NCBI GenBank assembly: GCA_029204225.1
Contig: CM055106.1
Coordinates: 20,899,285-20,963,284, forward strand
DNA from: Diphasiastrum complanatum
Lineage: Eukaryota; Streptophyta; Lycopodiopsida; Lycopodiales; Lycopodiaceae
DNA length: 64,000 nucleotides
Reading direction: 5' to 3'
Shown: positions 20,501 to 63,576 of the stretch, piece by piece
Numbering within the stretch: the stretch's first letter is position 1
How the letters are laid out: each line of letters starts with the position of its first letter
Position numbers and translations under genes: made by a program
Notes under the pieces: generated by a model
What the model saw: only the letters and a program-made list of their open reading frames with translations
Databases searched by the model: none
What the model was told of the DNA's origin: nothing

Positions 20501-20862
20501 CTCTCATAACTCCTCTTCATGCTTTGTAGAATCTGATTCCTAAGCATGAGAACCCTCGAAGTGTTACTAGACTCATAGATAGATTTTAAAGATTCCCAAG
20601 CCTCTTTAACACTCTTACATAATGATACTTCCCTTAAAAGGTCATTGCTTACATTCATCTTAATACAGTGAAGTGCAAGCCTAGACCTCTTCTTGTATCT
20701 CACTAATTCATGTCCACCTAGAGGTTCACCTTCATCATCTATTAGAAACTCATAAAGATCCTGGAGCACCATTAGTGACTCCATCCTAACTTTCCAAATA
20801 GCATAATTGGTAGAATTTAACCTCTCACTAGCTTCTAGAAGGTAGGCTCCCACTGATCCCAT
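17461..20862 (-). CDS. Copia gag-pol polyprotein, lacking RNase H
   Basis: One uninterrupted frame of 1133 codons from an ATG at 20862. In order: UBN2-like gag (about 1-200), zinc knuckle CFFCGKKGHFASKC (250-263), aspartic protease WWIDSGASSHM (D311), pre-integrase LWHKRSGHPN (about 436-445), integrase with D502, D564 and E600 in D-D-35-E spacing, and reverse transcriptase with LDFTNAFLNG (D914) and YVDD (999-1002). After FEDI (about 1092) the frame runs straight into the 3' LTR at 17576, so the last 39 residues are LTR read-through. The whole RNase H domain and the polypurine tract are missing. Everything upstream looks intact, so it is a young element crippled by one deletion. A Trp-to-Gly change in QAPRAGYSRL (usually QAPRAWY) may also harm RT. 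Confidence 0.93.
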   Translation of the reverse strand: MGSVGAYLLEASERLNSTNYAIWKVRMESLMVLQDLYEFLIDDEGEPLGGHELVRYKKRSRLALHCIKMNVSNDLLREVSLCKSVKEAWESLKSIYESSNTSRVLMLRNQILQSMKRSYESAQDYVLRIKSFNRELASIGEKIQDSELVQIVLNGLGSGFTNLVQSFAIQDTLPTIEKLHSVLVAKECRMLHTNVRMNAISLQDGDEKANFSFKSKKKTNGKKKHFKETKEEDEASSSKGKIKDKSKYKCFFCGKKGHFASKCLKKKNTPESKQSNIAHQEEEEEDEESSLMVSNKPPSSKSNTNDSWWIDSGASSHMTYQKDIFSTLLSYNDLHRSIYIASSQECKISGIGTIPLYVGSSKRMNLDNVLYVSKLTKNLLSVGQLMDNGLDVQFKHGICSILRNDECIAKGFKQGRLFKLDANVAVESVKLAKVELWHKRSGHPNYKAMESMVAKELAVGLPKHLSKCGKRCEACSLSKAHKLPFSRSTSRSNSPLELLHSDVHSFSHESNGGAKYYVIFIDDFSRFCWMYLLSSKSMVFDSFVKFKTLVENQLSTKIKVLRSDNGGEYISNKLIDFYSSNGIKRELSCPYTPQQNGVSERRNRSLCECAKALRLDASLSKPFWGEAITCANYLCNRLPNQAIGRITPFEALFGEKPNLKDLKVFGSTCYVHQSLDKRRKDDATSIKGIFVGYGENSKGYRVFNPITSKVIVSRDVIFYEGHACDLDDNATNHLDAKDHARMEEELPSEEELEDPPQDARTPRTPRRSTRARSEPLRLTYDGQGGQREGSSSFTSYTFLTSMLDEPTCYEDACKSKIWMDAMQVEYDALIENHNWDLVDLPQGKKPLDCKWVFRLKYNQDGSISKHKARLVAKGFLQTKGIDYDETFAPVAKLVTIRLIISLATTFNWELFQLDFTNAFLNGYLEEEIYMRQPEGFIKAKHKGKVCFLKNSLYGLKQAPRAGYSRLNSFLISINFVMSAYDPSLYISFHDGMIIILVLYVDDIILSGNNLDGIRDVKITLAKESKMVDLGLLSFILGIEVIRGCDFSFICQSKYAASILDRFGMKNCKGIETPMEQHVKASIGCDEASFEDITLLLYILSILFVGYLNGQSATCTYTPKVGYHESRGVVVSIW

Positions 20863-21494
20863 CTTACTAGCAAGATTCTACACACAAGATATAGATTTGT
20901 TTGGACGTGAAACTCACAAAGGTTTCTAACTTGCAGTGTTTCACTCAAATGTTGACTTCTAATCCAACAGATGGATTTGTAATCACAATTCTATCACTCC
21001 CTCACAAAGCTGGAATGAAGATAAGATGAGATGAAAACTACACTCAAGCAAATCTTGCCAATCTTGGCTATTCTTGGACAAAAACTGACTCTATCTCTCT
21101 CATTCACTTTGTACTTTCAAGACCTGGTTTTCACTTTAAGAAGGTCTAAAATCAGCCTAGATTAATTAGTTTTCATGAAACAAATTCAAAACTAATCAAT
21201 GGCAAGTGATCTTGGTAGCTTATCCTAGGATTTGCACCAAAAATTACATCAAACTGACACCAGATGAATTTTCTATGATCCAATGAATATGGGTTATTAA
21301 ATGCTGGTTCAGAGATGCCCACACGTGTGAATAGTACGGATTTTGATCTTGAAAAAAGTTTGGGATCAAATCCCCTCACCAAAACTTGGATACCAGCTCG
21401 CCCTTCCAATACTAGCTTTTTGCACCAAAACCTGTTAAAACTGGATTAGATTCAGACACAGATCAATGGCCTTCTACTTGGCTCAGATACCATT
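20863..21494 (-). other. Copia 5' leader
   Basis: Non-coding region between the primer-binding site and the gag ATG, about 630 bp. It includes another CACACGTGTG palindrome near 21321-21330. The element's genomic RNA leader would lie here. Confidence 0.7.
21481..21492 (-). other. Primer-binding site, initiator tRNA-Met type
   Basis: The minus strand reads TGGTATCTGAGCC two bases inside the 5' LTR. The usual plant copia site complementary to the 3' end of initiator tRNA-Met is TGGTATCAGAGCC, so there is one mismatch. Confidence 0.85.
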
Positions 21495-22139
21495 TGAAAA
21501 GTACAGTACTAAGGACCATAAATGGATCTTTGAATGATCCACAAGGTGATTGTATGCTTGTTAAACAATCTATCAGAAATTAGTCATCAGAAAACAAGAT
21601 CTAGTTTAGCAGCTTGATAGGAAACAAGTAGAGACAATCAAAGCATTGATCAATTAGTATAATCCAACCCCACACGTGTGGAAATAAGGCTGTAGTATGA
21701 CCTGTAGACAGTGTTTACAAAGTGCCAAAGCTGGGTTTCATTGGAAATCAAGAGAAATCACCATACAATGAAAGGAAACTCGAGTTTCTCTTTGAGGCTC
21801 CAAAAAGTTTCTATCTTCTCACTATGGAGAATGGGAATACATAGTAAAACACACTTCCTTTGCAAAGTTAGGTGAAAATCTAGCATGTAATAAGGAAGTA
21901 GACTCCACTTTCTTGCCCTAATGTGAAAACCCTAGCCTAGATCCAAGAGTCATGCTTGGTAGGTGCATGGTAGGTACAAATCTCATCATAAATTATGGTC
22001 TAGATCCTACAAAGTAGGAATCACTACCAAATGGACACAACCACTCCTCTTGACTCGTGGTAACCTACTTTAGGTGTGTATGTACAAGTGGCACTTTGGC
22101 CATTCAAGTAACCAACAAACACTATTGACAAAATGTACA
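21495..22139 (-). mobile_element. Copia element, 5' LTR (645 bp)
   Basis: Same length and boundaries as 16932-17576 (TGAAAAG...TGTACA), about 97.5% identical by eye. The primer-binding site on its inner side shows that this is the 5' end of a minus-strand element. To its right lies an older copia integrase on the same strand. Confidence 0.92.
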
Positions 22140-22179
22140 ATATTCTACATGGCTAGATTTGCCAATGTAGGCAATTTTT

Positions 22180-23895: not shown

Positions 23896-24438
23896 TTAAT
23901 TTAATGGAGAAATATTAAAAAGCATCAGCCATGGAAATAGCAAAGCATAGAAAAATAGAAACCTTCAATGAAAAGCATTAGACAAGAAAGCAAAAGCTCA
24001 TGAGAGGATGCTTGAATCACAAAGCGATAGAGTTTTCTCCTCTCTATTAACATATAAAATGGAGTACAAGAGGTGCCTTTTTATTCTTGGGGAGGCCCTT
24101 GCCCTTTGCTTCTATTGGCTACTTCATTGAGGGAAGGATTGAAATCCTAACCCTTCAAAAGAAACAAAACTAAATTTATGGTGCACAAAGAAGCACACTC
24201 CACCTACCACCACTGACTTTGACTAGTACTTAGGACTTAAACAAAACTTAATCAACTTAGACTTTGGGCCTTTTACATTATTTTATTCACATGGCCCAAG
24301 TCTATTTTATTCCATAATACAATAATTTACATGTGCTCATTGGGCTATGGGCTTACGCACGCAAGATGCCATGGCCCTCACACCTATTTTTCTATTTATT
24401 GGCCAAAATTTATTTATTTACAAGAAATGTCCTCAACA

Positions 24439-25283
24439 GGGCCCCTAACTTGAAATAGTGTCGATCCCTCGACAGTATGGCGCTAATATGGTCCGCGTGT
24501 TCGTCGTCGACGCCTTATTAAGAAATCGGTAACTTGCTCCTTAAACTCAACTTGAGCGAAGCTTTGTTTGTCGGCCGTTGAGAAAACTATTGTGTGGATG
24601 CCCTCCAACCAAAATTGGATGATCCACTTTTGAGACTTAATCGGCCAGGGAGGGCCTAACATGACTGCATCTGGCCATCGGTAACAGGTCCTCGAGTTTG
24701 TCAGACGCCATAGCTTTATTTGGATCAAAGAATAGTGGTGGCAAAAAATCATCCCATTTGGTGGGGACCCATAGCAAAAATTCCAGATCATGGGCGAATT
24801 CAGCAACCGCGCGAACTGTAGGATCTGAGCACTTGAAATATTGCTTATGAAACTGGACTAGAGCCATTTTGGTGTCTACGTACGTTCCCCACCCATGCTC
24901 TAAGTGAATCTTTGGCCAGTTTAGTGTTTTGATCATAATTTGGTCCAAAGTCATCTTGCACTGCATCCATTTGTGTCTGCATGAAATGCGGACGGAGTGG
25001 GAGTTGATCCGCTATTGCCTTGGACTGGGGACATGTACGCTCTGATTGTCCAAGGAGTTTTTTCAAAGATATGATGCCGCCATGCAGGTTTTGATTCCAG
25101 AGTCGGAAGACATGTGATCTCATTCTCTTTTATTTCCTTTGCAGTAAATGTAATTTACCACTCATCGCGTGAGGACTCGTGGGGATGCTGCACGAGGAAT
25201 TCATTGATTTTTTCCTCCACACTCTTGGGTTTGCGGAACGCTTGGCTGGCCGATATTGAGCGAGAGCCCTGGGAGGTTGAAGT
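24439..25283 (-). pseudogene. ORFx copy 1, C-terminal half
   Basis: Read on the minus strand it is homologous to the C-terminal part of the frame at 56237-57060. Shared features include AFRKPKSVEEKINEFL with PHESSR (here) against AFRRPKSMEENINEFL with PHESSR (there), then W(P)KI or W(P)II with GWGT or GWTT, CSDPTVRA or CPDPTVRA, KWDDFLPPLFFDPNK or KWDDFFPSIFFDPNK, and a basic end RRRRTRG or QRRSKRT. Several frameshifts are present. The LTR starts directly after its stop. I do not recognise the protein family. The rest of this copy lies at 28454-29400, across a younger insertion. Confidence 0.7.
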
Positions 25284-26073
25284 TGTGGAAAAAGTACAAA
25301 AAAGACCAAGATTGGATCCTAATCTGATCCTCAAAAGGGATTGGTTGTCAGATTACTTGATCTATCAATCTACTTGAGATTAAGATCAATCTAGATCAAT
25401 TCTAGACACAAAATCCTAACAAGAACAATCATTAATTGAAGGGAGGTGTACTTTCTGGTTTCACACGTGTTAAAAACTTTCTGAGTACGGACTCCAACAT
25501 GAAAATCAAGTACACATTGATAGAACCTCAAAACAATCAAAACAAATGTAGACAAATGGAGAGAATCACTCAAAATTGCTTCCAAAACCAAGATTGGTGT
25601 CTCACACTGATTACGGCCAAATGTGGCTCTATATATACAATAAGTGGGAGCTTGTGGTACTGATCATCTCTCTGATCCCACATGTGTGAAGGTGCTTTGT
25701 CATATGATGATTCATCATGCAAAACTGACACTTGGACAAAACCTTCTATTTTGAGCACTTTTGGTCCATTTTCCTTCTATATGGAGATCTACTTGGAAAT
25801 CTTCTAGAAGTCAAAATTCGCCTACTTCAGCTTATTCCACACATGTGAGCTGTCTTCTACACATGTGATATGACACCTAACCAAAGGATGTGGCTCATGC
25901 AATCAATAGATTGATGCCATGTGCCATATGTCTAGAAAACTAGTTTTTGGCCTTTTTAGCCACTAGAACTTGAATTAAATCATATGTACAACCTATATGA
26001 TTATGGTACATGAAAAGTACACTATTTTCACATGTGGGAACAGGCTCCACACATGTGTGTTTATCTATATACA
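25284..26073 (-). mobile_element. Non-autonomous copia-like element, 3' LTR
   Basis: Starts TGTGGAAAAAGTAC and ends CTATATACA on the plus strand, 790 bp, nearly identical to 27665-28453. Its left end resembles the start of the 645-bp copia LTR (GAAAAGTACAG..., GGATC), so the two families are related. It contains several CACATGTG and CACACGTG palindromes. Confidence 0.85.
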
Positions 26074-27651
26074 AGATTTTGAACATCTTCAATAATCTAG
26101 AATGATGTACAAAAGATTTAGCTCACAAACCTAAGAATCAATCTTCACACTAATGACTAGTCACTTGAAAACTTTGCTTTGATCACTAAGACAAAAGCAC
26201 ACAATCTTTGAATCAAATCACAAAAGAAATTAGATCCAATCTCCTATTGGACTCATCAAATACCAATGACTCTTTCTTTTGAAAATTGAAATGGATATGA
26301 AAAGATTTGACACCTAGATTTTTCTTTTCACTTGACTAGTTCTCTCAACACTTGAGATTCTTGAACAAAAGATGGGTTTTGTTTCAAACACATGAAAATC
26401 AAACTTAATCACTTATTTTGGACTCACTCTTGACCCAAATAATCTCACTCTTGAGATTTAGAATGAATTTGATTTGATTTGACAACAAACTATACCATCA
26501 ATTTTTCACAAAGCTTAAAAAATTTAAACAACTAGAGATTCACAAAGATCTCAACCATGCATGAATACTCAAATATAGACTCCTCATTCTAGACATCCAA
26601 TGGGATCACAAATTGACCCTCACACTCTCACAAAGAAAGTTGAATAGAACTAATTTGAGTTTCACACATTCTATGTCAATATTTGCTCAACATATTGAAT
26701 TCAATCACTCCTATTGGATTCCACCAATTACTCTACTTTTTAAGACTTGGAATGAAATTCAAAATCAAAAGTTGTGATTTTTCTCACTAAGATATTGTGC
26801 TTCAAAGAGCTAATACCACTTAGAAAGATTTGATCACATAGGAGAAGACACATTCGTCACCAATAACAACACATAATGAGCTTCTAGATCTTGCCCTCTA
26901 CAAAAAGAAGGAACTCTTAGAAAATTGGATCTCTCTCTACACATTTGCCATAGACACCTTAATGACTCTCTTCAAACCTTACAATCACTCAAACAAATTG
27001 AGTAGGGTTGAACAATGTGACTTGGATCTCAATCTCTTTTCTAGAACTCTCAATTTAAGCCAATCTATGTCAAATTCTACAAAAGATTTGCATAGATGCT
27101 CTATATGCACTAGAAACTCTCAAAGGTTTCACTTGGAGGACAGATCCAAAGACGTTTTCTAGCAAATTGATGCTTCTAAACTTGACCCTATCACTCTTGA
27201 ACAAATATAGAGTGATGGTACAATGGATTTCAACCTCTCACCTTGCATATCACTCCTTAATCTATGATTTTTAGCAAAATCTCTCTCAACTTCAACATAC
27301 ACTCAAAAAATCAGAGAAGGTCAATTAATGCACCTATTTCAAGGTTAAATTTTAATTTTTTGGCTGATCTAATCCAAGAATTAATCAAGGGATTAGATTC
27401 ACTATAGAACATGCTTGATTTTGCACCAAAAATCACTCAAATTGGGTATGTGAGTCAAATTGTACAAATTTTTGAATTTTCTCAGCCAAAATTGAAGCTG
27501 TATGGCCTCACACGTGTGAAAAGAGTTCCTACAGCCCACAACAAGATCTGCACGAAAAAATTTGAGGATAGCTATCAAATCCAACTCGCTACACAAAATT
27601 TGGTTTTGAATTGGATTAACCCTATCAATTTCAACAAAATCTCTTGTACTA
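26074..27651 (-). other. Interior of non-autonomous copia-like element
   Basis: About 1.6 kb of AT-rich DNA without coding capacity and without any gag, integrase or RT motif. Many words such as CACTCTTGA, TTGAATC and CTCACTC recur. With its two LTRs the element is about 3.17 kb and must have used proteins from another copia, plausibly a relative of the element at 16932-22139. Confidence 0.7.
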
Positions 27652-27664: not shown

Positions 27665-28453
27665 TGTGGAAAAAGTACAAAAAGGACCAAGAGTGGATCC
27701 TAATCTGATCCTCAAGAGGGATTGGTTGTCAGATTACTTGATTTATCAATCTACTTGAGATTAAGATCAATCTAGATCAACCCTAGACACAAAATCCTAA
27801 CAAGAACAATCATTAATTGAAGGTAGGTGTACTTTCTAGTTTCACACGTGTGAAAAACTGTCTGAGTATGGACTCCAACCTGAAAATCAAGTACACATTG
27901 ATAGAACCTCAAAACAATCAAAACAAATGTAGACAAATGGAGAGAATCACTCAAAATTGCTTCCAAAACCAAGATTGGTGTCTCACACTGATTATGGCCA
28001 AATGTGGCTCTATATATACAATAAGTGAGACTCGTGGTACTGATCATCCCTCTGATCCCACATGTGTGAAGGTGCGTTGTCATACAATGATTCATCATGC
28101 AAAACTGACACTTGGACAAAACCTTCTATTTTGAGCACTTTCGGTCCATTTTCCTTCTATATGGAGATCTACTTGGAAATCTTCTAGAAGTCAAAATTCG
28201 CCTACTTCAGCTTATTCCACACATGTGAGTTTTCCTCTACACATGTGATATGACACCTAACCAAAGGATGTGGCTCATGCAATCAATAGATTGATGCCAT
28301 GTGTCATATGTCTAGAAAACTAGTTTTTGGCCTTTTTAGCCACTAGAACTTGAATTAAATCATATGTACAACCTATATGATTATGGTACATGAAAAGTAC
28401 ACTATTTTCACATGTGAGAACAGGCTCCACACATGTGTGTTTATCTATATACA
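27665..28453 (-). mobile_element. Non-autonomous copia-like element, 5' LTR
   Basis: 789 bp, the partner of 25284-26073, next to the primer-binding site. The flanking five bases outside the two LTRs (GAAGT and AGATT) do not match, so I cannot show a target duplication. The ORFx homology continues on both sides, which proves that the element inserted into ORFx copy 1. Confidence 0.85.
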
Positions 28454-29400
28454 AGATTTTTTGTCTCTACCAAGCTTATTTTTGCATTTTGCACAGAAGT
28501 TTATTGCTCCTTCGTCGATCTTGCTAGCTCCATCCCTAGGCCTTGATTTGTTCCTTAGCCTTGATCTACTCCTCAGTCTTGTATGATTGTCAGCCCCGCT
28601 GCATCTGATCTTTGATCGAGGCCTATGTCTGCCTATGCAGCTTCAAGTTGGGGTGGCAGTAAAATTACCATGGGGGCCGGTGGTGGCTACTGAGTTGTGT
28701 GCTGTTGCGAATCTTTGAGGACAACCTTGGCTTGTGAGAGCTCATTGTGGGCCCTGAGGTCGATACCCATCAAAGGTGGCTTGGTTGCAAGCCAGTGTTT
28801 GCCGAATAGCTACACCTGCTGGGTCAAGAAGTTTGCCTCATGTTGGGTGAGCGGTCTATTTGTAGGCACTGACTAGATAAGCCACTCTGTTTTCTCTCTT
28901 TGGAGGGCTTGTACCTCCACTTCAAGGTGTTGATTCTCGGTTTCGGCCACTAATAACCGGACAAGCTATAGTTGTGCAGACTGTTGGGCTTCTTGGACCT
29001 TGGCGGCCCTAGAAACTTGTCTCGTTCTTTTATAGCTTCTCTAGACCTGAGCTTTCTCTACTTGCTCGTGCTGTTGCGCCACTTGTAGGTCCTATTGGAG
29101 CTATGTGAGCTCTACATGCAACTTGGTGTTGTTGGTTTTGAGTTCCACCACCCGGCTGTCCAAGGTAGATTCGGCTCTTACGAGCCCCCGGAGCACTATG
29201 CCCAAATGTTGATAGGCTGTAGTTACGTCCTGAGGAGCAACCGATGTTGAGATTCTGACTAGGCTTGGTTGAGATATGGCCCTTGGTGCATATCGTCGTC
29301 GTCATCAACTTCTATCAAAATTCTTGGAGGTACCAAGTCCTCAAGTGCGGTGGGGTCAACACACAGACGTCAGGCTATAAACCCGTTGTTCAGAATGCGT
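28454..29400 (-). pseudogene. ORFx copy 1, N-terminal/coiled-coil half
   Basis: Continues the frame broken at 25284. Minus-strand reading aligns with 57100-57940: DPTA..., LIEVDDDDD against LIEDNDDG, STLDSRVVELKTNNTKL against ILESRVLQLATSNTQL, QVAQQHEQ against ILAQQHEQ, TNRPLTQHEANFL against DTRPLSQSETNLL, and PMVILLPP against AMVIPLPP. The pattern of spaced Leu, Glu and Gln is that of a long coiled coil. Stops and frameshifts are common. The N-terminal domain seen in copy 2 (58403-57963) is missing; homology stops near 29400 where a gypsy integrase begins. Confidence 0.65.
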
Positions 29401-30165
29401 CATTATCCAATGGTTTATCACTAAGGATGCCAATTCGAAAACTGTCACGCATTTTTTTAATGAAAACATTTTGGTTGTCCTATCGAGCTTGTTAGTGATA
29501 GAGGATCAGACTTCTTAAATGAAGTGGTTGATAATCTTTTATGCCATTACCTTGTTGTCCATCGAACCCTTGGTGTAATGGCCAAGCCAAATCCATTAAC
29601 AAGACTATCTGCAAGATTCTGACGAAGATAGTTGAGACAAGTAGATCAGATTGGAAAACCAAGCTGTTCTCAGCTATCTGGACATATCGTACAACTCCAA
29701 AGAAAGTCACTAGATGGATCACACCATTCCATCTTGTTTATGGTCAAGAGGCAGTAATGCTTGTTGAATTCTTAATATGTTCTTTGAGAGTCATGCAAAC
29801 CTTCTCCACTGATCTATGTGAGAATGTTGTGATTGAATATGAGATTCAAAACAGGCTATTTATGTTAGCTCAATTGTGCGAGACTCGACTCATCTCTTAT
29901 CACGCACAACTCGTTAACAAACGATGCCAAAAGTCCTAGCATGATAGACACCTACGCAATAAAGACTTACATCAAGGTGATCATGTGCTTTTTTATACCT
30001 CCAGAAAGCACCCCTAGAAATCAAAATTCAGAATTGAAAGACCATATGTCATCCATAAAATCTTTCCCAGTGGAGCCGTCGAAGTAGAGACACTTGATGG
30101 AGTACTCCTAGACATTGTCGTCAATAGCGTTTGTCTACGGTGGTACTACAAAGAGCTGTTTTTTA
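29401..30165 (+). pseudogene. Gypsy integrase fragment
   Basis: Plus strand with frameshifts: CPIELVSDRGSDFLNEVVDN (second catalytic Asp), then a jump to NGQAKSINKTICKIL (E of NGQAE replaced by Lys), SDWKTKLFSAIWTYRTTPKK, PFHLVYGQEAVMLVEFLICS, and the C-terminal GDHVLFYTS and GAVEVETLDG-like sequence. It matches the integrase at 61238-61900 in layout but is a different family. RT and RNase H are absent. Confidence 0.8.
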
Positions 30166-30539: not shown

Positions 30540-30925
30540 AGTCTCCACTTGACATCTCGAACGATCCAATTGCTACATCAGCTGACCGAGTATTTTTGGT
30601 TGTGATTTCGATCGAGTCCTCTGGTTTTCATCTCGACTGAGTCCTCCGGTTGTCATCTTGACCAATTCCTCTAGTTGTCATCTCGACCGAGTGCTTTGGT
30701 TGTCATCTAGACCAAGTCCTCAGGTTGTGATCTTGACCGAGTCTTCTGGTTGTGATCTCGACCGAGTCCTCTGGTTGTGATCTCGATTGAGTCCTCTGGT
30801 TGTCATCTCGACCGAGTCCTCTGGTTATAATCTCGATCGAGTCCTCTAGTCCACTCTCGACTGAGTCCTCTGGTCAATTGAGTCTTCCTAGCTCAATCTC
30901 AACCGAGTTGAGCCTATCTTCAGAG
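30540..30925. repeat. 25-bp tandem array, GACCGAGTCCTCTGGTTG
   Basis: At least ten imperfect copies of a 25-bp unit, core ATCTCGACCGAGTCCTCTGG plus TTGTG, running head to tail and ending in shorter, diverged copies. It follows the gypsy integrase remnant and sits where a 3' untranslated region is expected. More scattered copies of CTCGACTGA and CTCAACCGAG occur to about 31680. Confidence 0.85.
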
Positions 30926-48515: not shown

Positions 48516-49166
48516 TGTTGGGGGTATTCCTGACGAATTGTAAATAAATAAAATCGACCAGTAAAATGTGTTGCGAGGGCATGGCATCCTACGCGTATAA
48601 GCTCGTGGCCCAATGAGCACGCAAGCTAAGCTGTAAATAAAAAAATAGGCTTGGGCCCTTTGTAATTAAAATAAAACTTGAGGCCCAAAGTCAATTTTAA
48701 ACTTAGAGATTACTTTTAGAGTTGGGTCCAATTTGGGACTCACATGAATCTTGTGAATTTCAATGTACTTTTTGTGGACAATCACTCTTGCTTATGCTAT
48801 TGTTGTGGATTGCTTGTTATTTCCATTTCCCATGTTTTTTGTTTATGCTAGTTAAGGTTTTTCCATAAGCAATGAAATTGAGCATTTGAGCTAACCTCTA
48901 TCTCATCTCTCTCACTCTCTCTTACCCTCTTTCCCTCTTTTCCTCTTCTCTTCTTCTCTACTTCTCTTCTCATTCACCCTCAATCATGATGAATGTTAGT
49001 TTAGTAGAGTAGAGTTAGTGGGAGTAGTTTTAGTGGTGGTAGAGTTAGATGAAAAGTAGGGAACTAACTAAAAGTAGCATCTGTGCATAGTTAGGTGCCT
49101 ATCCAATGAACTAGCCCTTGTTGACAGGCGGGAGGGCTATTACTACGTCGGATCAAAGACCCTACA
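48516..49166 (+). mobile_element. Gypsy 5' LTR, 651 bp
   Basis: Starts TGTTGGGGGTATTCC and ends CCCTACA before a tRNA-Asp-type primer-binding site. It is about 170 bp shorter than the related LTR at 62756-63576 because the part with TATA and transcription-start region is deleted after TTTTTGTGGACA. It inserted in a copia LTR; the five bases before it are GCTGA. Confidence 0.85.
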
Positions 49167-49185: not shown

Positions 49186-50125
49186 TAGGTTTCCACTAAC
49201 TAGTGTAGTTGCATTTTAGCTATTTCTTGCTTTTTAGAGTAGTTTTAGGTAGATTTTTGGGAGTTTAGAGTTAGTTTTCTGTATTTTTTGTGTTTGGACT
49301 ATTCACAGCTAGCGGAGGAGATGTGAGAGGCCGGTAGAGGAGGTCTTGAACATCTTCTAAGGGCTTGAAACTCAAACCAACCAACCAAAAACCCCAAAAA
49401 CACACCAATCTGCATTTTGGAGAGAAAAAGAGCCTAAATTCTCATCAGATTTTAGTATCTCCAAAACCAGTAAGAGTTAATCCTTGCATGACTGGCAGCA
49501 GCTCTAGGGTACTGTCCCAGACCTACATAGAATCCTGCGAGAGTTAATTCCAAGTAGATTGCAAAAATTAGAAAAAAATCATAAAAAATTCAAAAATCTT
49601 TGAAAAAATCCAAAAAAAATACAAATCTTCACCAGAACTCTCGCAAAGCCCTCTGAAGTTCCATCTTAGTGAGACCAGGACACAGAAGAGCCTACGAGAC
49701 TTAGTTTGATTCCAATGAGCAAAAAATTGGGTTTAAGTGCTAAAAAATCACTAAAAAGTGAAGATCCAGCAAATCCTTCCAGTAAGAACTCTCGCAGACC
49801 ACCTCAATTGATTTAGAATGTCAATTTCCATCAATGAAGAATCCTGTGAGACTTAGTATAGAGATTTGGTGAAGATCAAGCCAAAATAGTGGTTATGAAC
49901 CCTCGCATATAGTGAAATTTTCACTTGGTGCGAGAGTTAACTCTCGCAGAGCATTCCATAGTGAGATCTGACCCAGATTCAACTATTGTGATCCTTGCGA
50001 GAGTTACTTCCAAAAGATCTAAGAGATATCAAGTTTTTTATCTGCAAAAACAGCTAAAGAACCCTTGCACAGGCAACCCTCGCACAAGAGAACCCTCGTA
50101 GACTAGATCAGTGGGGAGATAAGTC
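49186..50125 (+). other. Gypsy leader with GCGAGAGTT motif array
   Basis: Non-coding leader. From 49537 it carries repeated GCGAGAGTT and its complement AACTCTCGC, for example at 49537, 49636, 49787 and 49997, plus a perfect 18-bp palindrome GCGAGAGTTAACTCTCGC at 49930-49947. The same motifs occur in the element's 3' non-coding region at 62360-62640. The leader is cut near 50125 by copia sequence. Confidence 0.75.
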
Positions 50126-52883: not shown

Positions 52884-54016
52884 TGTTGGATTTACTCCTT
52901 CTATTCTCCTAAATCCCATTTTTAATCTGCCTCCATACTTGCTGCATATTTACTAACATTGTCACGCAGCTTGCATGTTTACACGCAAATTCGCATAGAT
53001 GAATAAAAGGTGCAAAAATTGCGACATTGTGTTTTTACATAGGTTATGATGACAGGCGAAAAGGGAACACTATCCTACAGAATGTCGAAGGTGCCCTAAA
53101 AGCTAAGGCACCCTGTAAATCTTATCCTAAGGCCATTCGTAAGAGTGACGCACTTTTCGCATCATCACCAACGTTCACTTCAGCACTAGCTGACGTCGCA
53201 CCCTTTTTAGTTCACCCCATGCAGTTGCACTAACAGATTGGACAACGATTGTAGCCACCAACGATCTCCTATAGACAGCACATCCACTCTGTACTTTCAC
53301 ATCTGCACACCTGTAATATTATGTATATATATGCATATACTGGACACCATTAAAAAAAAAAAGATGAGATGAATAGATGATGAAGAGAGCAAAAGAAGAT
53401 GACATAAACGAAGTAGATCCCCTGAGCATTGATTCTTCACTTTGTCAGAATTAAGGTTTAATTTTTTTTTTACAGATTGAAATAAGCTTTTTAGGACATG
53501 CGGTTTCGTCCGCTACTGTATTATGTTCTACCGCATTATTGACATGTATACATGATATACTTAATCTGATACAGTTCATTGTTCTGCGTTCAGATCTATG
53601 GTAATATTGCTATGCTTATCTTTCATTCTGTCTGATCTTTCTAGTTGTTCTTGTTGGTAATAGACGATTAACATTTAGTCTTGTCTTTTGCGAATCATTT
53701 GCGACTAATTATCAGTCGAGCATAATCTAGCTCTTCGCGAATCATTCGCGACATATAATTTGTCTTGCTATTCACAACAAATTATTCTTCTGGCGTTTCA
53801 TTTATTAATGTTTGGCTACATAATCTAGAATGACCATGATTTCTATCACTAAAGTTCAGGCATTCTGATAGGCGTAGTCATGCTTTCGGAGAGAGTCGTA
53901 TAGTTCATTCCGCTGCGCACGAACATTTTCTGTTCGAGTTCATTTCTCGTTCGCTTCTTGTTCGAGTTCGTTTCTCATTCATGTTTGTCATTTATTCTCC
54001 CTCTCTCTCTCCAACA
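52884..54016 (+). mobile_element. Copia 3' LTR, 1133 bp
   Basis: Starts TGTTGGATTTACTCC right after the polypurine tract ATTAAGGGGGGC and ends CTCTCCAACA, with a matched TGTTGGA/TCCAACA pair at its ends. Gypsy gag starts a few bases further on. The related LTRs are 43997-45122 and, in part, 39885-40458 and 48143-48515. Confidence 0.88.
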
Positions 54017-54049
54017 GACTGCATCCCACTATACAATCAAGATTCAACT

Positions 54050-55833
54050 ACTTTGGAACCCACCATCGGATGAATCTGAGATCTAGATGATCAATAGCAA
54101 GAAGGATAGCAAATCAAGCACCACACCTTCCCAGATTAGCAGCTACGCAACAAGAGACAGAGCCGAAACTGGCACCAATGGATCCAATGGGCCAACCCGT
54201 ACATGTCGCTCCCTTGCAAGCAGTCTGCAAAGCACCACGGATGGAAATACCAAAATATGACGGATCATTAGATCCCGTCCACTTCCTCCAGATCTACGAG
54301 CAAGCTTGCGAAATCTACCGTGAACGGACACCTGCAGAAAAGTTTCTGTTGTTTCCTATGTCCTTATTAGCAATGGCTTAGGATTGGTTTTTCAACCTGT
54401 CAGAAGAAGAAAAATCTATATGGGAAGTGGTTAAAGCGGCTCTCATTACGCACTTTAAACCAAGGAAGTTTTTGGAAGACCGGTTTCTCCTGCTTAGCAA
54501 AGTCAAGATGGGAAAATGAGAAAGGGTCATGGACTATATTAAATGGGTCAAACATCTATGATCCGAGTGCAGTGTAGCCCTAACTCCCGATCATGTGGTA
54601 ATCATGTAGTTCTTAGCAGGATTACCACGAAGCATCAGAAGAGAACTGAAACAACGGGAGTAGTATGCTACTTTGCAAGAAGCTATGGAAGAAGCCATCA
54701 GGGAAGATGATGAGGGATCTGACGATGAATATCCATCCACCCATACTCCTACCCCCTCGATAGCATCATCATCATCAAACCATCTGTTCTATCCACTGAA
54801 CTGTTGTTGGATCAACTGACAAAATTACACAAACAGCAGATGGAGCAACTTACGGCATAATTTGATCAGAAACTGAAAGCCTTACATGGAGTTGTAGCAG
54901 CAACGCCACATCAACCGAAACTAAACCGACTACAATATCCTCGACAGGAGAATGTATGGTGTTCAGTATGCACACAAAACCATACAACGAACGAGTGTCC
55001 AGTCCTAAAGCAAAATCTGAGATTGACACATAGATTTTGTCATCTGTGCAATGTAACATCGCACGATACAACATTTTGCCCGTTTAACCCCTGGATTGTT
55101 CAACAGAAGAGAAGTCCTTATTAGCCTTCTTATCCATATCATCAAGGGGCACCTAACATGGCACCGAGGTACGGCTCATCGAATCAGCAACAACGTATGG
55201 CCTTACCTGCACCACTGGGGCCAGCCAATCAGCAAGTGGTCCATGTAAACCTGACAGCAGCGGACCCAAAGATGCAAGTACTACCTCAACCTGAGCAGCA
55301 CCAATGGTATGGACCGGAGGAGCCATTTATGGATCTTGCCATAAATGAGTATTTTGCGGCCTATGCAGCTCAAACTCAACATCAAGGCGGAAGAAATTAC
55401 GGTTGCTATGGATGCGATGAAGGACACAGGATTGCGGAATGTCGTTACAAAAGAAAACATACATCTTTTTGCCAAGAATGTGGTTATGGACACTGCTTTA
55501 AGAATTGTCCATTGAGACCTGGAACCAGTGCACCACTAAACTTCATTACAATACAACAACCAGTAGTTCCAGCGGGGATGTCACCGGAAAGGCAACAACT
55601 CCATGCTCCTATTTTAGTCGTTACGCGAACATAGAAGAGAAAGGAAGTGGCTCCCTCACCAGCACCATCGGTCACTGATGACCAACCCTCGACTTCAACG
55701 CCATATCCGAACATGAGGGAAGAGAGAAGACAATATCAAAAAATACAACATTGGGTATAGAGAGCACAAGCGGAGGAAAAAGAGCAAGAAGGAGAAAATC
55801 CTACGGAATGTCTAGTTGACGACGGTGTCTTTT
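54050..55833 (+). pseudogene. Gypsy gag
   Basis: Plus strand. Retrotransposon gag capsid: EIPKYDGSLDPVHFLQIYEQ, DWFFNLSEEEKSIW, ALITHFKPRKFLEDRF, then LAGLPRSIRREL. Next come an acidic stretch, a coiled coil and a Cys-rich tail (CSVCTQNHTTNECP, CHLCNVTSHDTTFCP, CYGCDEGHRIAEC, CQECGYGHCFKNCP), an unusual series of zinc-knuckle-like motifs. In-frame stops at 54379, 54517, 54559, 54607 and 54661 are each one C-to-T change from CAG or CGA. A frameshift lies near 54780. The frame ends at 55833 (PTECLVDDG), where the inverted ORFx element cuts in and removes the protease. Confidence 0.88.
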
Positions 55834-55835
55834 TG

Positions 55836-56191
55836 TAAAATGGGAAAGGCCCTTGCCCCTCAATCTTATTGGCTAATATTCACAATGATCCTAACCATTC
55901 ATCTTGGACCCAACTTGATCCAAGGGTCCACAAAAAGTACATTAGAAATCACAAGATTCATGTGAGTCCCAATTTGGACCCAACTCTAAAAAGTGATCTC
56001 TAAGTTTAAAAAAGACATTAGGCCTCTAGTTTTATTTTGATTACAAGGCCCAAGTCAAGTTTATTTTATTTACAACTTCAATTGCGTGCTCATTAGGCCA
56101 TGGGCTTATACACGCAGGATGCCATGCCCTCGCAACACATTTTATTGGAGGATTTTATTTATTTACACTTTGTTGGGAATACCCCCGACAG
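55836..56191 (-). mobile_element. Inverted ORFx element, start of 3' LTR
   Basis: Read from 56191 on the minus strand: TGTCGGGGGTATTCCCAACA and on, matching the first 364 bp of the LTR at 62756 almost throughout. It stops at 55836 in the TATA-box region (TTTTATAAAAAGACAC in the intact LTR). The stop codon of ORFx and a GTCGTGGGTCC tract precede it. Confidence 0.85.
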
Positions 56192-58403
56192 GACCCACGA
56201 CCTGAAGTAGTGCCGGTCCCTCGGCACTCTGCCGATTTAGTAGAGCGTTCTCTTGGACCGCCTCTGGTGGATGGGATATCCCGTAACGTCTTCCATGAAG
56301 TTGAGATGGTCCAGTTTCTTTGAGTCCTTTGGCGTGTGGAAGGACTTGTGGACTCCTGTCAGCCATTCCTGATCCACCAATGCTTGGAATCGTTTCGTCC
56401 AGGGATCAGCTCGGTAATATATGCGAGCGACTAACAGCTGGTCTTCGACTTTGTCAGAAGCGAGCGTCTTATTTGGATCAAAAAATATGGAGGGAAAGAA
56501 ATCATCCCATTTTGTTTCAATGCCCATTAAATATTTTAAGTCCCGGGAATAAGTGGCTGTCGCGCGGACTGTTGGATCGGGACAATTGATGTAGTGACTG
56601 GCGAATGCAGAGAGAGCCCTTCTGGCATCTACATCCGTTGTCCACCCATATTCGGATTTGATGATTGGCCAGTTGAAATTGTTGAGTGTGATCTGGGCCA
56701 GAGGAGTGCGGCATTCTGCCCATTTGGATCTTCTTGGACATGGCAGGAAGTGCGCGTTCACCCGTAACTGTTGCGGACTCGTCACCTAACCCCTGATGGT
56801 CGCAGGGTCTCTCTCAAATAAATGCTGTCACCACTCCGGTTGTGGTTGGCGGGCAGGTAAGGCTTGTAGTTCTTTTCCCTTGATGGTCTGAGCTGAGAAT
56901 GATATCTGCCAACCACCTCTTGATGACTCGTGGGGATATTTGGATAAAAATTCATTGATGTTCTCCTCCATGGATTTCGGTCTTCGAAAGGCTCGACTGG
57001 CAGATATCGTTCGTGACCCTCAAGATGATGTTGTTTGGCCCTGGTTGATGGTTGCGCCTTGGCTCTGGTCTTGCATCTCAACGGCCGCTTCTGTCTGCCC
57101 TTGGTCTTGGCCTTCGGACCCTTGATCTGGTTGAAATCCCCCTGCTGCCTACTGGCTCTGATCTTGGCTGGTACTAGCTTGTGCAGCGTCAAAATTAGGT
57201 GGCAGTGGAATTACCATGGCGGTGGGCTAGGCCTTCGTTTTCATGTATTTCTGGCATGCCTTGAGGGCTTGCTTGGCCTGGGCGAGCTCTTGCGTTGCGC
57301 TTTCCCGATACTTATTGAACTCTGTCTGGTAGCTGTTCAGGGTTTGGCTATAAATCTGCACCTGATGCTGTAGAAGATTTGTCTCTGATTGGGAAAGCGG
57401 CCTTGTGTCCGGTGCAGATTGAGCTAACCAGGTGAGTTTCTCGTCTTGTAAGGCTTTAATCTCCGTCCCCATGCGCGTGTTCTCTGCTTCCAAAAGTGTA
57501 AGTTGCGCCTAGATGGGGGCAAGCCATTGGGATGCTTCAGCTTGAAACTCTCGCACCTTTGTGGAGGCCTCAGTCAGCGCTTTGGAGAGGCTTTGAATAT
57601 ATTTGTTTAGGCCCTCCTCCTTCTGCTGCAGCTTGGCAATCTCCTAGTGCCATGATTGTTCATGTTGTTGAGCCAGAATCAGCTCTTGCTACAGATTGGT
57701 GGGGTCTTGTCGCAGTTGTGTATTACTCGTTGCCAACTGTAGTACCCTGCTTTCCAGAATAGCTTTGGCTGCTATCGCATCCAGAATATATTTTCCTAGG
57801 GTTTGGTACACTGTCGTTAGATCCGTGGGAGCAGCTGGTACACTGGCACTGGTAGGGGCTGGTGTTGTATCGGCCCCGATGACTTGTGAAATTCCGTCGT
57901 CATTGTCTTCGATCAGATTTTCATTTGTCCTGATGCAGTAGGGTCAGTCCGATCTGGTGATGCTACAAAAACTGTTTGTACAAATGCGTCATCAGGCAGT
58001 GGTTGGCTGCTCTCAACAACCTTTGGCGAAGCGGGTGGGGTGTGAGAAACAACTGTGGAAACAGAGGTGATGACGGTTTGTCCGAACGATCACCAGATAT
58101 AATGCCAGTGGTGATCATCGAGTCGGCGTTAATCCTAACCTTGTACGTGGTACCTTGGTACATGAAGTGGAAACGAGCCTTGTCCTCATCCCAGGTGGCG
58201 TAAGTGTGAAGGGCGAGGCCCAAGTTAATCTCAGAATGGAAGAGCGCCAAGTAAAAACCCAATGCTTCAAGGAGTGGGCCGACTATCTGCAACCATGGTT
58301 GGACCAAAGTGTCAGAGGGTAGAGGCCAAGTCTGCGTGGCCTCGGGGATGTCACACTGGATCACCTGTTTGGTGCCAGAGTCTTCAAAGGATGAGGAGGC
58401 CAT
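56192..58403 (-). pseudogene. ORFx copy 2: coiled-coil protein of a gypsy-type element
   Basis: Begins at an ATG (58403, MASSSFEDSGTKQVIQCDIP). An N-terminal domain of about 145 residues (QIVGPLLEALGFYLALFHSE, DEDKARFHFMYQGTTYKVRI) ends in a stop at 57963. After a frame change, about 57900-57240 is a long coiled coil (ILESRVLQLATSNTQL, SLSKALTEASTKVREFQAEA, KALQDEKLTWLAQ). A Gln/Gly-rich linker follows, then a C-terminal domain (AFRRPKSMEENINEFL, KWDDFFPSIFFDPNKTLASD) ending KRTLY at about 56237. The seven or so stops after the frame change look like former CAG or CGA codons, so the original protein had about 720 residues. It starts about 260 bp after its 5' LTR and ends beside its 3' LTR, leaving no room for gag-pol. 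I do not recognise the family. Confidence 0.75.
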
Positions 58404-58666
58404 GTTAACAATGATGATTAGTGTTCAAAAAAGTCGAAAAAGTAGAAAAAACGATGGAAAATGGAAAAAGATGTGGAAACAATAGAAAACTAAGAATAAT
58501 GAGTGTTGGATGAGAATGATTGTAGTTCAGAACGCAGATCGGTGTTTAATATAAGCAGATGACAGCTGGTAGGAAGTTTGGTTGAAAACAGAAAACTTGG
58601 TATTTTTAATGGAAATTTTGACAGAGCTTCACTAGCAAAGGTGACAAATGACTCGAATTTAGCCCT

Positions 58667-58895
58667 TTGTAGGGTCGAGGATCTTTCGTAGTATAGCCCT
58701 TCCGCCTGTCAACAAAGGTTAGATCACTAGATAGGTGCCTAACTATGCATAGATGCTACTTTTAGTTAATTTCCTACTTTCTCCCTTAACTCTACTCACC
58801 ACTAAACTACTCCTCTTTAACTCTACTCCTCTACACTAACATTCATCATAGTTTTGGTTGAAGGGAAGGGATGGAGAAGAAGAGAGGGCAAAAAG
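58667..58895 (-). mobile_element. Inverted ORFx element, end of 5' LTR
   Basis: Minus-strand match to the last 220 bp or so of the gypsy LTR at 62756 (AACCTTTGTTGACAGGCGGA, AGATCCTCGACCCTACA). After CTACA the tRNA-Asp site is replaced by AAGGGCTAAATTCGAG, so the normal primer-binding site is missing. The outer part of the LTR is absent, as in its partner at 55836-56191. Confidence 0.75.
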
Positions 58896-58899
58896 AAGG

Positions 58900-61800
58900 T
58901 GTTAGATTCCTTGAAGTTAAACAAGTTGGACTCAGATACAACGTCATCTTCTACACAGGTGACAAAAAATAAAAAAATGACCAGTCAGGCCAAGATCAAT
59001 ATGCTGAAAGAGGAATTTTGACGAGCTCCAGTTCATGAGATGCCTGATACTTTCAAGAATTATACATTGGACAACGTGGTAATCATGATGTCGCAAGCCC
59101 AACGAGAACCTGATCAAAGTCAGGCACCAGCGGAACAAGTCTTTGAGGGACCTACGCGAACACAGTCGATGAATCTTGTGGAACCAGGAGAAGAAGAAAG
59201 GATAGTGCATGTGGGAGAGCAATTAACACCCATGCAGTTCAAGAGACTACGATCTTTGTTGGTGGAATATAAAGACTGTTTTGGCTGGAGCTATAGTGAT
59301 CTAAAGGGCATTCCGCCAACAGTAGTCCAACACACCATACCTTTGGTGGACGAAGCAGTCCCCAAGGTAAGCCGTTACTACCGCTGCAATCCGAATTATA
59401 CAGAACTGATCAAGCAAGAGTTGCAAAAACTTATGGATGCAGATTTCATTTACGAAATCGAGCACACGGAATGGATATCGCCGATAGTTATAGTACCCAA
59501 GAAGAATGGCAAAATGCGTATCTGTGTAAATCTGAAGGCGCTTAATGCAGTCACCAAAAAGGACCATTTTTCTTTACCATCTATGAAAAGTGTCCTCGAT
59601 AGAGTAGCTGGCGACGAAGCCTATAGTTTTCTGGACGGCTTCAACGGCTATAACCAGGTGAAAATAGCCCTCTAGGACTAGCAAAAGACAACATTCGCCA
59701 CAGAATGGGGAAGTTATGCCTATAAAGTGATGCCATTCGGACTTTGCAATGCCCCAAGCACTTTTCAGCGACTCATGTAAGCGGCATTCAAAGATTATTT
59801 GCAAAATTTTTTGAGATTTTTTTTGGATGATATGTGCGTGCATGGACCAGATCCAGAACACTTATCCAATTTGGAGAAGGTGCTACAAAAATTTCGCGAA
59901 TACCAGATCTCCCTGAATCCAAAAAAATGTCAATTCTAGGTGACGCATGGCTTGATACTCGTCCATATAGTGTCTAAACAAGGGATTGCCATAGATCTAT
60001 CAAAGATCAGGACCATTGTTGATCTACCACCACCGGGGATGATCCGCGAGGTCTACATTTTCATGGGTCATGCTAACTACTATAGGATCTTCATTCTTGA
60101 TTTTGCGGAGTTAGCCAGACCAATTTACAAGCTCACAACGGATCCACATTGGAATGAGGAAGCTTTAAAGGCTTTCCAGAAGATTAAGTATGCATTGGTC
60201 TCAGCACCAATCCTACGACCACCCAATTGGTCCATTGAGTTCCACGTGCATACGGACGCATCGAAGTATGCAGTTGGAGCAGACTTGACCCAGCCAGGTG
60301 AACACAAAAAGGATTTTCCAATCCGATTTGTAAGTTGACAGCTCAGTGATACCGAAATGAATTATTCAACCACAGAGTGAGAAGCACTGGCAATGATCTA
60401 TGCGGTTAAGAAGTTTCGACACTATTTAATGGCCACACATTTGCTTTTTATACGGACCATCAACCCTTGCTATATTTTGTTAATAAAACTTGCAACATCG
60501 GGAGAATCACCAGATGGCTCCTTTTGTTGTTGGAATTTAATTTTCGGATAGTAGTTCGCAAGGGAAAACAACACTACATGGCAGATCATGTGTCAAGAAT
60601 CAAGGGAAAGGAGATTGCAACTCAACCCGACGATGAGCTGGCAGATGTTGCCTTATTTTACATGGATACAGTACCAGAATGGGATGCCGATATTGTTGAA
60701 TATCTAATGCGGGGCCAACCAGACAAATCACTACCAAAGGCGAAAAAACAGAAATTGATCTTGAAGGCTAGACCTTATCAGCTAATTGCCGACCAGTTGT
60801 ACCGAAGAAGTCCAGACAAAATTCTTCGACGGTGTATTCTTCCTCATGAGACCACCCAGATCATTTCGCTTTCACATGAAGGCATGGGTGGAGGTCATTT
60901 TGCATCTGACATTACAGTTTGCAAGGTCCTGCAATCAGGATGTTGGTGGCCAACGATTCATAAAGACACGGAGGAATACTTGAAAAAGTGTGATGTGTGC
61001 CAAAGGGCAAGGAGACCAACGAGATTGAACTATGATCTACTGCACCCAGTCTTAGCCCAAGCACCGTTCAAAAAATGGGCATTGGATTATATTGGTCCAA
61101 TTCACCCTGTAGCAAGGAGTTCCCAGGCTCGATACGTAATCGTAGCCACAGACTACCTCACCAAATGGGTCTAAGCCAAGGCAATAAGAGTAGCTGATGC
61201 TAGGACCACTGCCAAGTTCCTTCATGAAAATATCATTGTGCGCTTCAGGTGCTCGGTGGAACTAGTCAGTGATCATGGAAGCCATTTCATTAACGAGACC
61301 ATCAAGGTCCTGTTGGAGGAATTCTTCGTGATCCACAGAACCAGTATGTCTTATTATTCTCGTGGTAATGGGCAAGCAGAATCATCCAATAAGATCCTGT
61401 GTAGCGTGCTCACGAAAACAGGTGAAGCTAGCAGATCAGATTGGGAACACAAGTTGCATGCTGCATTGTGGGCATTCAGAACAGCATATAAATGGAGCAC
61501 TGATCAAACACCCTTCCAATTGGTATATGGTCAGGATGTTGTGATGCTAGTAGAGTTTTTAGTTCCTTCATTAAGGATTGCCACCGCGCAACGTCTTAAT
61601 GAGTCCAAATCTCTACAGCTACACCACGAAGCTCTACATAAACTCTGTGAAACATGCTTACTAGCTGTGCATGCACTGGCAGCTGAAAAGGAAAGACGCA
61701 AAGCTTGACATGATCGTAGATTACAAAAGAAGGATCTTCGTTCAGGAGATTTGGTCCTGATGTATAAAACCAAGGTGATCAAGGAAAAGTTAAATTCACG

Positions 61801-62055
61801 GACGAAGGTCCTTATAGAGTCAAGAAAATTCTTAATCATGGGACCGTGAACTTAGAACAGCTTGATGGGACGCCCTTCGATACACCCATCAATGGTAGCC
61901 GGTTGCACAAGTACTGGCCACCAGAGAAAGACAGATCTATATTGGGGGTGGCACGTTACAAAAAGCTAATTTGCTCAGCCATCATCGCTAGATCTAAGGA
62001 GATCAAGCCAAATCAAGCTAAATCCATCAAGATTCAGCCAGATCTGGCAAGATAA
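58900..62055 (+). pseudogene. Gypsy pol: RT, RNase H, integrase
   Basis: Plus strand. [96 protein letters not shown] (FLDD active site). RNase H: FHVHTDASKYAVGADL. Integrase: H-H-C-C zinc finger (SHEGMGGGHFAS, CDVCQRARR), ALDYIGPI, VSDHGSHF, GNGQAESSNK (D-D-E complete), and C-terminal GDLVLMYKTKV, then NGSRLHKYWPP. In-frame stops at 59673, 59679, 59778, 59937, 60336, 60378, 61172 and 61706 are mostly former CAG, CAA or CGA. There are frameshifts near 60440 and 61790. Protease is missing. The RT resembles the Tat/Athila side of plant gypsy (FxWSYxDLxGIPP). Confidence 0.9.
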
Positions 62056-62755
62056 AAAAAATCCACCAAAATCCAAGGAGGACCCAGATCCTGATAGGGT
62101 AAATAAAGAAGCAGATCATCAGATTGACTGAGGGTTCTTCTACCAAGAATCCATCAGAACTTCCAGAGCACTACCAACAGTCAGATCAAGCCTGGATGAA
62201 GCTGATTACCAGGTTACAAAAGTTAAAAATAAGAAAATCTCGATATCTTGTTAAAAAACACTCTGAAGGAGCACTTTTTTCATGATTTTTTGAGATCCCC
62301 TGGGAGATAGCTCTTGAAAATTGGACAGTCACCAATACTGACCTAGATGCATCCATGAAAATCTTTGCGAGAGTTCATGATGGAGAAATCATCATTTTTT
62401 AGTGTATGCGAGAGTTCCCAGAAGCAGAATTTTTAGAACCCTCGTAGAGCATCAAGATCAACTTATCAACTCTCGCAAGGTGTCTAAATGAAATTAGAGC
62501 AGTGAAATTAGCCTGCCTGCATGGTCTGATCTTGAAAATCCAATCACATGAACAAGTTGTGCAAGAGATCACTTCCTGCGAGAGTTGAACCCTCGTAGAA
62601 CATTCGTATGATAGTCAAATCACCTTCTGAACTCTCGCAGACTTCCCTGAGGTCTTAGAATTTTGTGAAGAAGGTGCCTGTCAAAATTTGGGTGGAACTG
62701 AATAAGGGAAAGTGAATTTCACCTAATACACACTCTAAATTCCTCTATATAAGGG
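62056..62755 (+). other. Gypsy 3' non-coding region with motif array
   Basis: After the pol stop. From 62360 to 62640 it carries GCGAGAGTT or AACTCTCGC near 62367, 62408, 62468, 62578 and 62631 with AACCCTCGTAGA variants near 62438 and 62590, as in the leader of the same family. The end, CTCTATATAAGGG, directly precedes the LTR and is a poor polypurine tract. Confidence 0.7.
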
Positions 62756-63576
62756 TGTTGGGGGTATTCCCAACAAAGTGTAAATAAATAAAATCCTCCA
62801 ATAAAATGTGTTGCGAGGGCATGACATCCTGCGTGTATAAGCCCATGGCCCAATGAGCACGCAATTGAAGTTGTAAATAAAATAAACTTGACTTGGCCCT
62901 TGTAATTAAAATAAAACTAGAGGCCCAATGTCATTTTTAAACTTAGAGATCACTTTTTAGAGTTGGGTCCAAATTGGGACTCACATGAATCTTGTGATTT
63001 CTAATGTACTTTTTGTGGACCCTTGGATCAAGTTGGGTCCAAGATGAATGGTTAGGATCATTGTGAATATTAGCCAATAAGATTGAGGGGCAAGGGCCTT
63101 CCCCATTTTATAAAAAGACACCATTTGTACACTATTTTCATGCTTAATAAAAAGGAGGAAACTCTACCATTTTTGGAAGAGAAGCATCTTCTTTTGCTAT
63201 TCACTACTTGCTATTGCTCTTGGTTGTGTTTTCTATTGCTTTCTATTTCCATGTTTTATTGTTTGCCATAGTGATGTTTTTCCATTAGCAAGCATAAGGA
63301 GCATTTGAGCTAACCTCCACCCTCACTCTCTTGCTCTCTCTTTCTCTTCTCTTCTCAATCTCTTCTTCTCCATCCCTTCCCTTCAACCGAAACTATGATG
63401 AATGTTAGTGTAGAGGAGTAGAGTTAAAGAGGAGTAGTATAGTGGTGAGTAGAGTTAAGGGAGAAAGTAGGAAATTAACTAAAAGTAGCATCTATGCATA
63501 GTTAGGCACCTATCTAGTGATCTAACCTTTGTTGACAGGCGGAAGGGCTATACTACGAAAGATCCTCGACACTACA
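62756..63576 (+). mobile_element. Gypsy LTR, 821 bp, the fullest copy
   Basis: Starts TGTTGGGGGTATTCC and ends CACTACA. It has a TATA box (TTTTATAAAAAG at about 63106) and a pyrimidine-rich stretch at 63310-63385 downstream of it. It follows the pol 3' region, as a 3' LTR would, but is itself followed by a PBS and leader, as a 5' LTR would be. It may therefore be shared by two tandem elements. Confidence 0.88.

Follow-up and report, generated by a model that had tools for sequence, protein, structure and literature searches.

We analyzed a 64,000-nucleotide stretch of the Diphasiastrum complanatum genome (assembly GCA_029204225.1, contig CM055106.1, forward-strand positions 20,899,285 to 20,963,284), hereafter the window, with positions counted from its first letter. 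It holds a decayed open reading frame (ORF), here called ORFx, amid pieces of the long terminal repeats (LTRs) of a local gypsy retrotransposon family, family A. The original prediction, made from the letters of the window, had described a frame of about 720 codons that starts some 260 bp after one LTR and stops beside another. Indeed, ORFx lies on the minus strand at 56237 to 58403, from a start ATG at 58403 to a terminal TAA at 56239 to 56237, a span of 722 codons. An LTR match at 58668 to 58898 (96.5% to 63346 to 63576) ends 264 bp before the ATG, and another at 55824 to 56190 (97.5% to 62756 to 63122) starts 46 bp past the stop. The inner ends of these two pieces are the LTR 3′ end and the LTR 5′ end, respectively, and both lack their outer parts. 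Most of the distance to the upstream piece is occupied by a leader (58404 to 58662, minus strand), which in 11 other copies is continuous with pol-side sequence. The predicted location is thus correct, but the window frame is incomplete, with about 900 bp gone from its inside at 58086 to 58089, where there is a 4-bp microhomology. Splicing as the origin of this gap is ruled out, as the gap has no GT-AG ends. Reading ORFx through takes two frame changes and three frames, the first change falling at the gap, and the third stretch carries eight in-frame stops ahead of the terminal TAA.

In other copies of the element, which we number with an L, the boundary at which the region 3′ of pol gives way to the ORFx leader has the sequence CTATAT-AAGGG-CTGAATTC. 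It is unbroken in 11 of 11 copies, with AAGGG in nine (L024 and L026 vary) and AAGGGCT in all eight that were printed; variants are CTATAC in L015 and CTAAATTC in L013. In the window, this boundary is split. Its left half, CTATATAAGGG, is followed by an LTR start at 62756, so that TATATAAGGG meets the LTR at 62755/62756, and its right half is preceded by an LTR end, which meets AAGGGCTAAATTC at 58668/58667. Since each half of the split boundary meets an LTR end, AAGGG, found at 62751 to 62755 (plus strand) and again at 58663 to 58667 (minus strand), is the 5-bp target duplication of a second element of the same family. The LTR piece before ORFx is therefore the end of a nested element inserted at the pol/ORFx boundary. 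The 5′ LTR of this nested element is at 62756 to 63576 (plus strand), and the end of its 3′ LTR (LTR positions 591 to 821) is the minus-strand piece at 58668 to 58898; this piece and 63346 to 63576 differ by a Kimura two-parameter (K2P) distance of 0.0355 over 231 bp. Beyond the right edge of the window, the body of the nested element continues with leader and gag and stops within the interval between gag and reverse transcriptase (RT), at L030; L031 and L029 showed none of the element parts that were probed. Splicing as the origin of the LTR/ORFx junction is likewise ruled out by the lack of GT-AG ends.

The older element, which received the insertion, contributes pol with the region on its 3′ side, up to and including TATATAAGGG (58899 to 62755, plus strand), and the first 367 bp of its own 3′ LTR, after ORFx (55824 to 56190, minus strand). 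Between 55823 and 58899 the ORFx side is in inverted orientation, together with what remains of the nested 3′ LTR (its tail) and of the older 3′ LTR (its head). A later rearrangement brought this ORFx side, in inverted form, to its place between gag and pol; two inversions and a copied inverted fragment both fit as its course. The window pol is mostly 91 to 94% alike to other copies, with its lowest value, 86.8%, in the pieces before ORFx. The gag region at 54000 to 55823 (plus strand; 80 to 87% to other copies) is of a diverged subfamily, as is an LTR at 48516 to 49166 (plus strand; K2P 0.26 to the 62756 LTR), and after this gag about 1.35 kb of the gag-RT interval is absent. Given the diverged gag and this absent interval, the gag and pol of the window are not clearly one element.

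A DNA search of the window's own 1.74-Gb assembly gave 6,581 first-look candidates. Scores were obtained for 40 of these, namely the window and 39 further places at 89 to 91%, so that the genome has at least 39 other copies. With so many copies, the window ORFx is no chance frame. All 39 align to the query solely over positions 1 to 1890–1898. For 18 copies (six of the seven other loci and 12 further scored places) we fetched the 10 kb upstream of ORFx. The middle region of about 900 bp that the window lacks is at least partly present in 18 of 18, most of which have the ORFx start on its far side. The span of ORFx is about 3.08 kb for a C19 copy and 3.13 kb for the element C3, by arithmetic on genome coordinates that assumes the window's 46-bp distance from stop to LTR, and a complete ORFx would thus have about 1,030 to 1,040 codons. 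Natural open frames reach 451 codons in L002 and 617 codons in L003, the first part of the latter being out of the ORFx frame.

What precedes ORFx in these copies determines its place. Pol-side sequence stands directly before it, on the same strand, in 12 of the 18 (L009, L011, L013, L015, L017, L019, L020, L021, L022, L024, L025 and L026). Over the probes used, pol is complete or nearly so in L013, L017, L024, L025 and L026, and it is shortened, interrupted or rearranged in the other seven, among which L022 also lacks the ORFx leader. The upstream sequence is cut by copia-type sequence with repeats in L014 and L018, by an 8.7-kb interruption containing an LTR-like repeat pair in L027, and by sequence with weak copia-like stretches in L023. 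In L016 and L028, gag or gag-RT sequence is joined to ORFx through an internal deletion. Outside these 18, L004 has pol-side sequence ahead of a shortened ORFx in its own flank. L016/L008 is a deletion derivative in which gag is joined to the middle of ORFx and the 5′ LTR end is gone. Where the start of the leader is readable, in 11 copies, it is preceded by pol-side sequence in all 11 and by an LTR end in none.

Four elements, C3, C4, C15b and C1, were fetched at both ends, and all four have paired LTRs with gag, pol and ORFx inside, ORFx having the orientation of gag-pol. The LTR pairs differ by K2P distances of 0.0209, 0.0342, 0.0415 and 0.019 in that order, and the flanking 5-bp duplications, in the same order, are AACAT/AACAT, GGCCT/GGCCT, CACAC/CACAC and CATGT/CATAT, three perfect and one with a mismatch. 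C3, about 13.3 kb long, and C1 contain LTR, leader, gag, gag-RT interval, pol, ORFx and LTR in this order, and C4 and C15b have internal deletions. The affiliation of ORFx with the local gypsy family, as predicted, is therefore borne out. Pfam finds Retrotrans_gag and Ty3_capsid above cut-off in gag, and RVT_1, RT_RNaseH, Integrase_H2C2 and rve in pol, which gives the Ty3/gypsy domain order of gag, RT, RNase H and integrase; the gag-RT interval matches no Pfam family, protease included. No second RNase H family was found in six natural frames that cover gag to integrase in pieces, where a diverged one could be missed. By resemblance, the element may belong to the Ogre/Tat/Athila (OTA) superclade. 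ORFx is almost certainly an extra ORF in sense orientation, located after pol and before the 3′ LTR.

A second, older copy of ORFx lies elsewhere in the window, as the original prediction had noted. Its C-terminal part is at 24439 to 25283 and its coiled-coil part at 28461 to 29435, both on the minus strand, the N-terminal part being lost. Protein matches to ORFx of 33% (E 6e-25) and 46% (E 1e-38) establish the relationship, and a related LTR (alignable part 23930 to 24438, minus strand) follows directly. The copy is split by an unrelated LTR-flanked insertion (LTRs 25284 to 26080 and 27665 to 28460, 96.7% alike). A 70% DNA match between 24259 to 24482 and 56013 to 56234 crosses the ORFx/LTR junction, so ORFx beside the 3′ LTR is the older state. 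An integrase fragment at 29470 to 29939 (approximately 29440 to 29939), 45 to 55% alike to the integrase at 61 kb and on the opposite strand, abuts this second copy.

Comparison of family A with the second copy bears on whether the protein was once selected, as had been proposed. In nine overlapping protein-guided blocks from four natural frames, the proportion of synonymous differences (pS) is 0.71 to 0.96 and that of nonsynonymous differences (pN) is 0.27 to 0.44, and third positions are in excess in nine of nine. In shifted frames, the same blocks give a pS of 0.20 to 0.61 and a pN of 0.36 to 0.59, and the excess is gone. Because protein-guided alignment favors the coding frame, we added plain DNA alignments. 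For the C-terminal part, four such protein-blind alignments give difference rates of 0.45 to 0.52 at third positions, 0.17 to 0.30 at first positions and 0.14 to 0.20 at second positions. The LTR control, two DNA alignments between the same families, is even across positions, at 0.18 to 0.25. Judged by this pattern of substitution, which the protein-guided and protein-blind alignments share and the LTR does not, ORFx was selected as a protein on the lineages by which the two families diverged.

The pol/ORFx boundary may also hold a promoter. TATATAA is present there in 10 of 11 aligned copies (L015 is without it), and in the left half of the window boundary; an older copy next to L005 has it too. 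In comparison with this older copy, a 67-bp block that includes TATATAA is 89.5% alike and the leader after it 60%. An internal promoter at this place is plausible but weak, and the protein may come from a separate RNA that begins at the TATATAA block. The insertion site of the nested element, 62751 to 62755, falls within the TATATAAGGG block, which is a candidate for the core promoter of ORFx.

The protein itself had been called unrecognized, and it is: Pfam has no family at cut-off, its weak hits being mostly to coiled-coil families, and a PDB sequence search with ORFx returned no solved relative or anything else meaningful. ORFx was also unmatched in a plasmid collection, a comparison of little relevance. 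The protein would consist of two terminal parts linked by S/T/P-rich, coiled-coil-like and Q-rich stretches. Heptad-like periodicity scores below 0.02 (400 shuffles, uncorrected) in scan segments covering approximately residues 267 to 360 of the L003 frame, which is only suggestive, as low values also occur in segments without helix character. Positive and negative charges nearly cancel out, and there are short basic clusters. In a simple scan of broken frames, the best 19-residue hydropathy is 1.64 in five natural frames and 1.53 in the N-terminal frame of the window, and the first 30 residues are polar, with a hydropathy of at most −0.18; the protein does not appear to be an evident membrane protein. 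As the likeliest role, we tentatively consider that of an accessory regulator, not an envelope, which works as an oligomer on the RNA or DNA of the element; it would serve to export RNA, to import the element into the nucleus or to relieve it from silencing.

Taken as a whole, these observations are very probably best explained by ORFx being the third gene of a gag-pol gypsy element. Several points weigh against this explanation. The 18 fetched copies are among the best-scoring ones and are no random sample, and in L014, L018, L023 and L027 the original upstream sequence lies beyond the interruption, unseen. Pairwise ratios of nonsynonymous to synonymous substitution (dN/dS) within the family are 0.58 for the N-terminal part of ORFx, 0.53 and 0.44 for C-terminal parts, and 0.45 to 0.49 for gag and pol; they are uninformative on selection because noncoding controls, in all three frames, give 0.48 to 0.67. 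The coiled-coil part of the second copy yields no protein-blind DNA match, so that selection there rests on the protein-guided blocks. The region before the TATATAA block is also 84% alike to the older copy, which leaves the promoter reading weak. Finally, AlphaFold models built from 8 and 7 sequences are too poor to be used, with confidence scores (pLDDT) of 40.6 and 40.9.

The original prediction had placed ORFx in a non-autonomous element, in which it stands in place of gag-pol between two LTRs and borrows the enzymes of the gypsy element. The window layout by itself fits this idea, as does L008/L016, an insertion with the duplication ATGAT in which gag is fused to ORFx and pol is missing. 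However, the AAGGG duplication accounts for the window junction, and an LTR end never precedes the leader in the copies where it can be read. The LTR end at 58668 is followed by no TGG-type primer site, unlike the intact 5′ LTRs of C4 and C15b, which are followed by GTGGCGCC and GTGGGCGC; GTGGC follows both plus-strand LTRs of the window. L008/L016 also lacks the LTR end and the primer site, and its deletions therefore probably postdate its insertion. Among the copies analyzed, none combines LTR, primer site, ORFx, LTR and target duplication with the lack of gag-pol. Gag-pol beside ORFx in the same element, which the prediction itself had named as the finding that would refute it, is what the two-ended elements contain, and pol precedes ORFx in two-thirds of the fetched copies. 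For the window copy, the replacement of gag-pol by ORFx is thus refuted, and we consider a non-autonomous element of this kind extremely improbable.

If ORFx is part of the gag-pol element, its product could still be something other than a regulator. A second structural or RNA-binding protein, serving particle assembly, would agree with its size, with the partial heptad-like periodicity of the L003 frame and with the basic clusters, and the coiled-coil part has Retrotrans_gag hits below cut-off (E 0.1 and 4.9). These hits, however, sit among many equally weak coiled-coil hits, and the element already owns a gag with Retrotrans_gag and Ty3_capsid above cut-off, so we regard such a protein as rather unlikely. 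The lack of transposon-family matches above cut-off would also suit a host gene captured without a function in the element, yet the protein-level selection between two families, in both of which ORFx is linked to an LTR, makes this improbable. An envelope-like gene, as proposed for Athila-type sense ORFs in the same place, matches in position and orientation (such ORFs are described in the review PMC7264820), and two stretches reach a hydropathy of 1.62 to 1.64, near the customary limit. But these borderline stretches hold several polar residues, the N terminus is not hydrophobic, and the linkers are long, coiled-coil-like and of low complexity; an envelope is, if anything, a slightly poorer candidate than a captured host gene.

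The window holds other features as well. An element at 16929 to 22142, which we take to be copia-type, has LTRs at 16929 to 17579 and 21492 to 22142 that are 97.4% alike and an open frame of 1138 codons on the minus strand. A 711-codon open frame at 5094 to 7229, also on the minus strand, presumably resembles a plant PAT1-type host gene. There is a tandem array with a 25-bp period at 30573 to 30896. The sequence TGCGAGAGTT occurs repeatedly, in either orientation, within the gypsy leader and in the region 3′ of pol (49536 to 50084, 62366 to 62639 and 63946). With at most one mismatch, it has 16 matches in the window versus 3.27 expected and a maximum of 8 in 100 shuffles, and two of the 16 (46348 and 57546) are outside those regions.

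Extra ORFs are a known property of such elements. In PMC6317226, ORFs in this position are named eORF-3′F (eORF for extra ORF) and occur in OTA-type plant Ty3/gypsy elements; the eORF proteins of Ty3/gypsy fall into 314 groups there, and 21.4% of eORF proteins have known domains, so that an unmatched extra ORF is usual. An ORF of this class has 250 codons or more in the interval from pol to the 3′ LTR; ORFx, a sense ORF, exceeds 250 codons there and, like most eORF proteins, has no domain match. It differs in that its pieces match none of the plant mobile domain, Transposase_28 and Athila ORF-1 families named in that text; against PF04195, PF10536 and PF03078 there was no hit at E values up to 10, in a search whose HMMER filters drop most weak matches. 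PMC11963269 describes antisense TRP28 ORFs of Retand elements, which also lie between pol and the 3′ LTR and some of which have Smc-type matches, read as coiled coil; unlike them, ORFx is sense, has no TRP28 match, and belongs to an element with no second RNase H in the pol parts scanned. The review PMC7264820 deals with env-like ORFs in sense and with ORFs in antisense, for which accessory functions are suggested. ORFx resembles the Athila-type env-like ORF of that review in position and orientation but has no evident signal peptide or membrane span. Tat lineages without an additional RNase H appear in the available portion of PMC10508981, and the element would resemble them in having RT, RNase H and integrase without that domain, a likeness judged from domain content; that portion mentions no ORF of the ORFx kind. 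We found no description of the ORFx family among the open-licence papers listed by our searches, and it may well be among ORF lists in supplementary files.

ORFx is therefore ordinary in kind, an unmatched addition to a known class of 3′ sense extra ORFs. That it represents more, namely a large, ancient and selected accessory family unrelated to described eORFs, sense, with an internal promoter at the pol/ORFx boundary, neither envelope nor TRP28, comparable to a retroviral accessory gene, in a gypsy lineage without additional RNase H, seems doubtful to us. The window also illustrates that a nested insertion of the same family, together with a rearrangement, can mimic a new non-autonomous element. 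According to PMC7264820 and PMC6317226, extra ORFs are common in plant gypsy elements and their roles are undetermined. With its many natural copies and a diverged relative showing selection, ORFx offers a usable case for the study of extra-ORF function.
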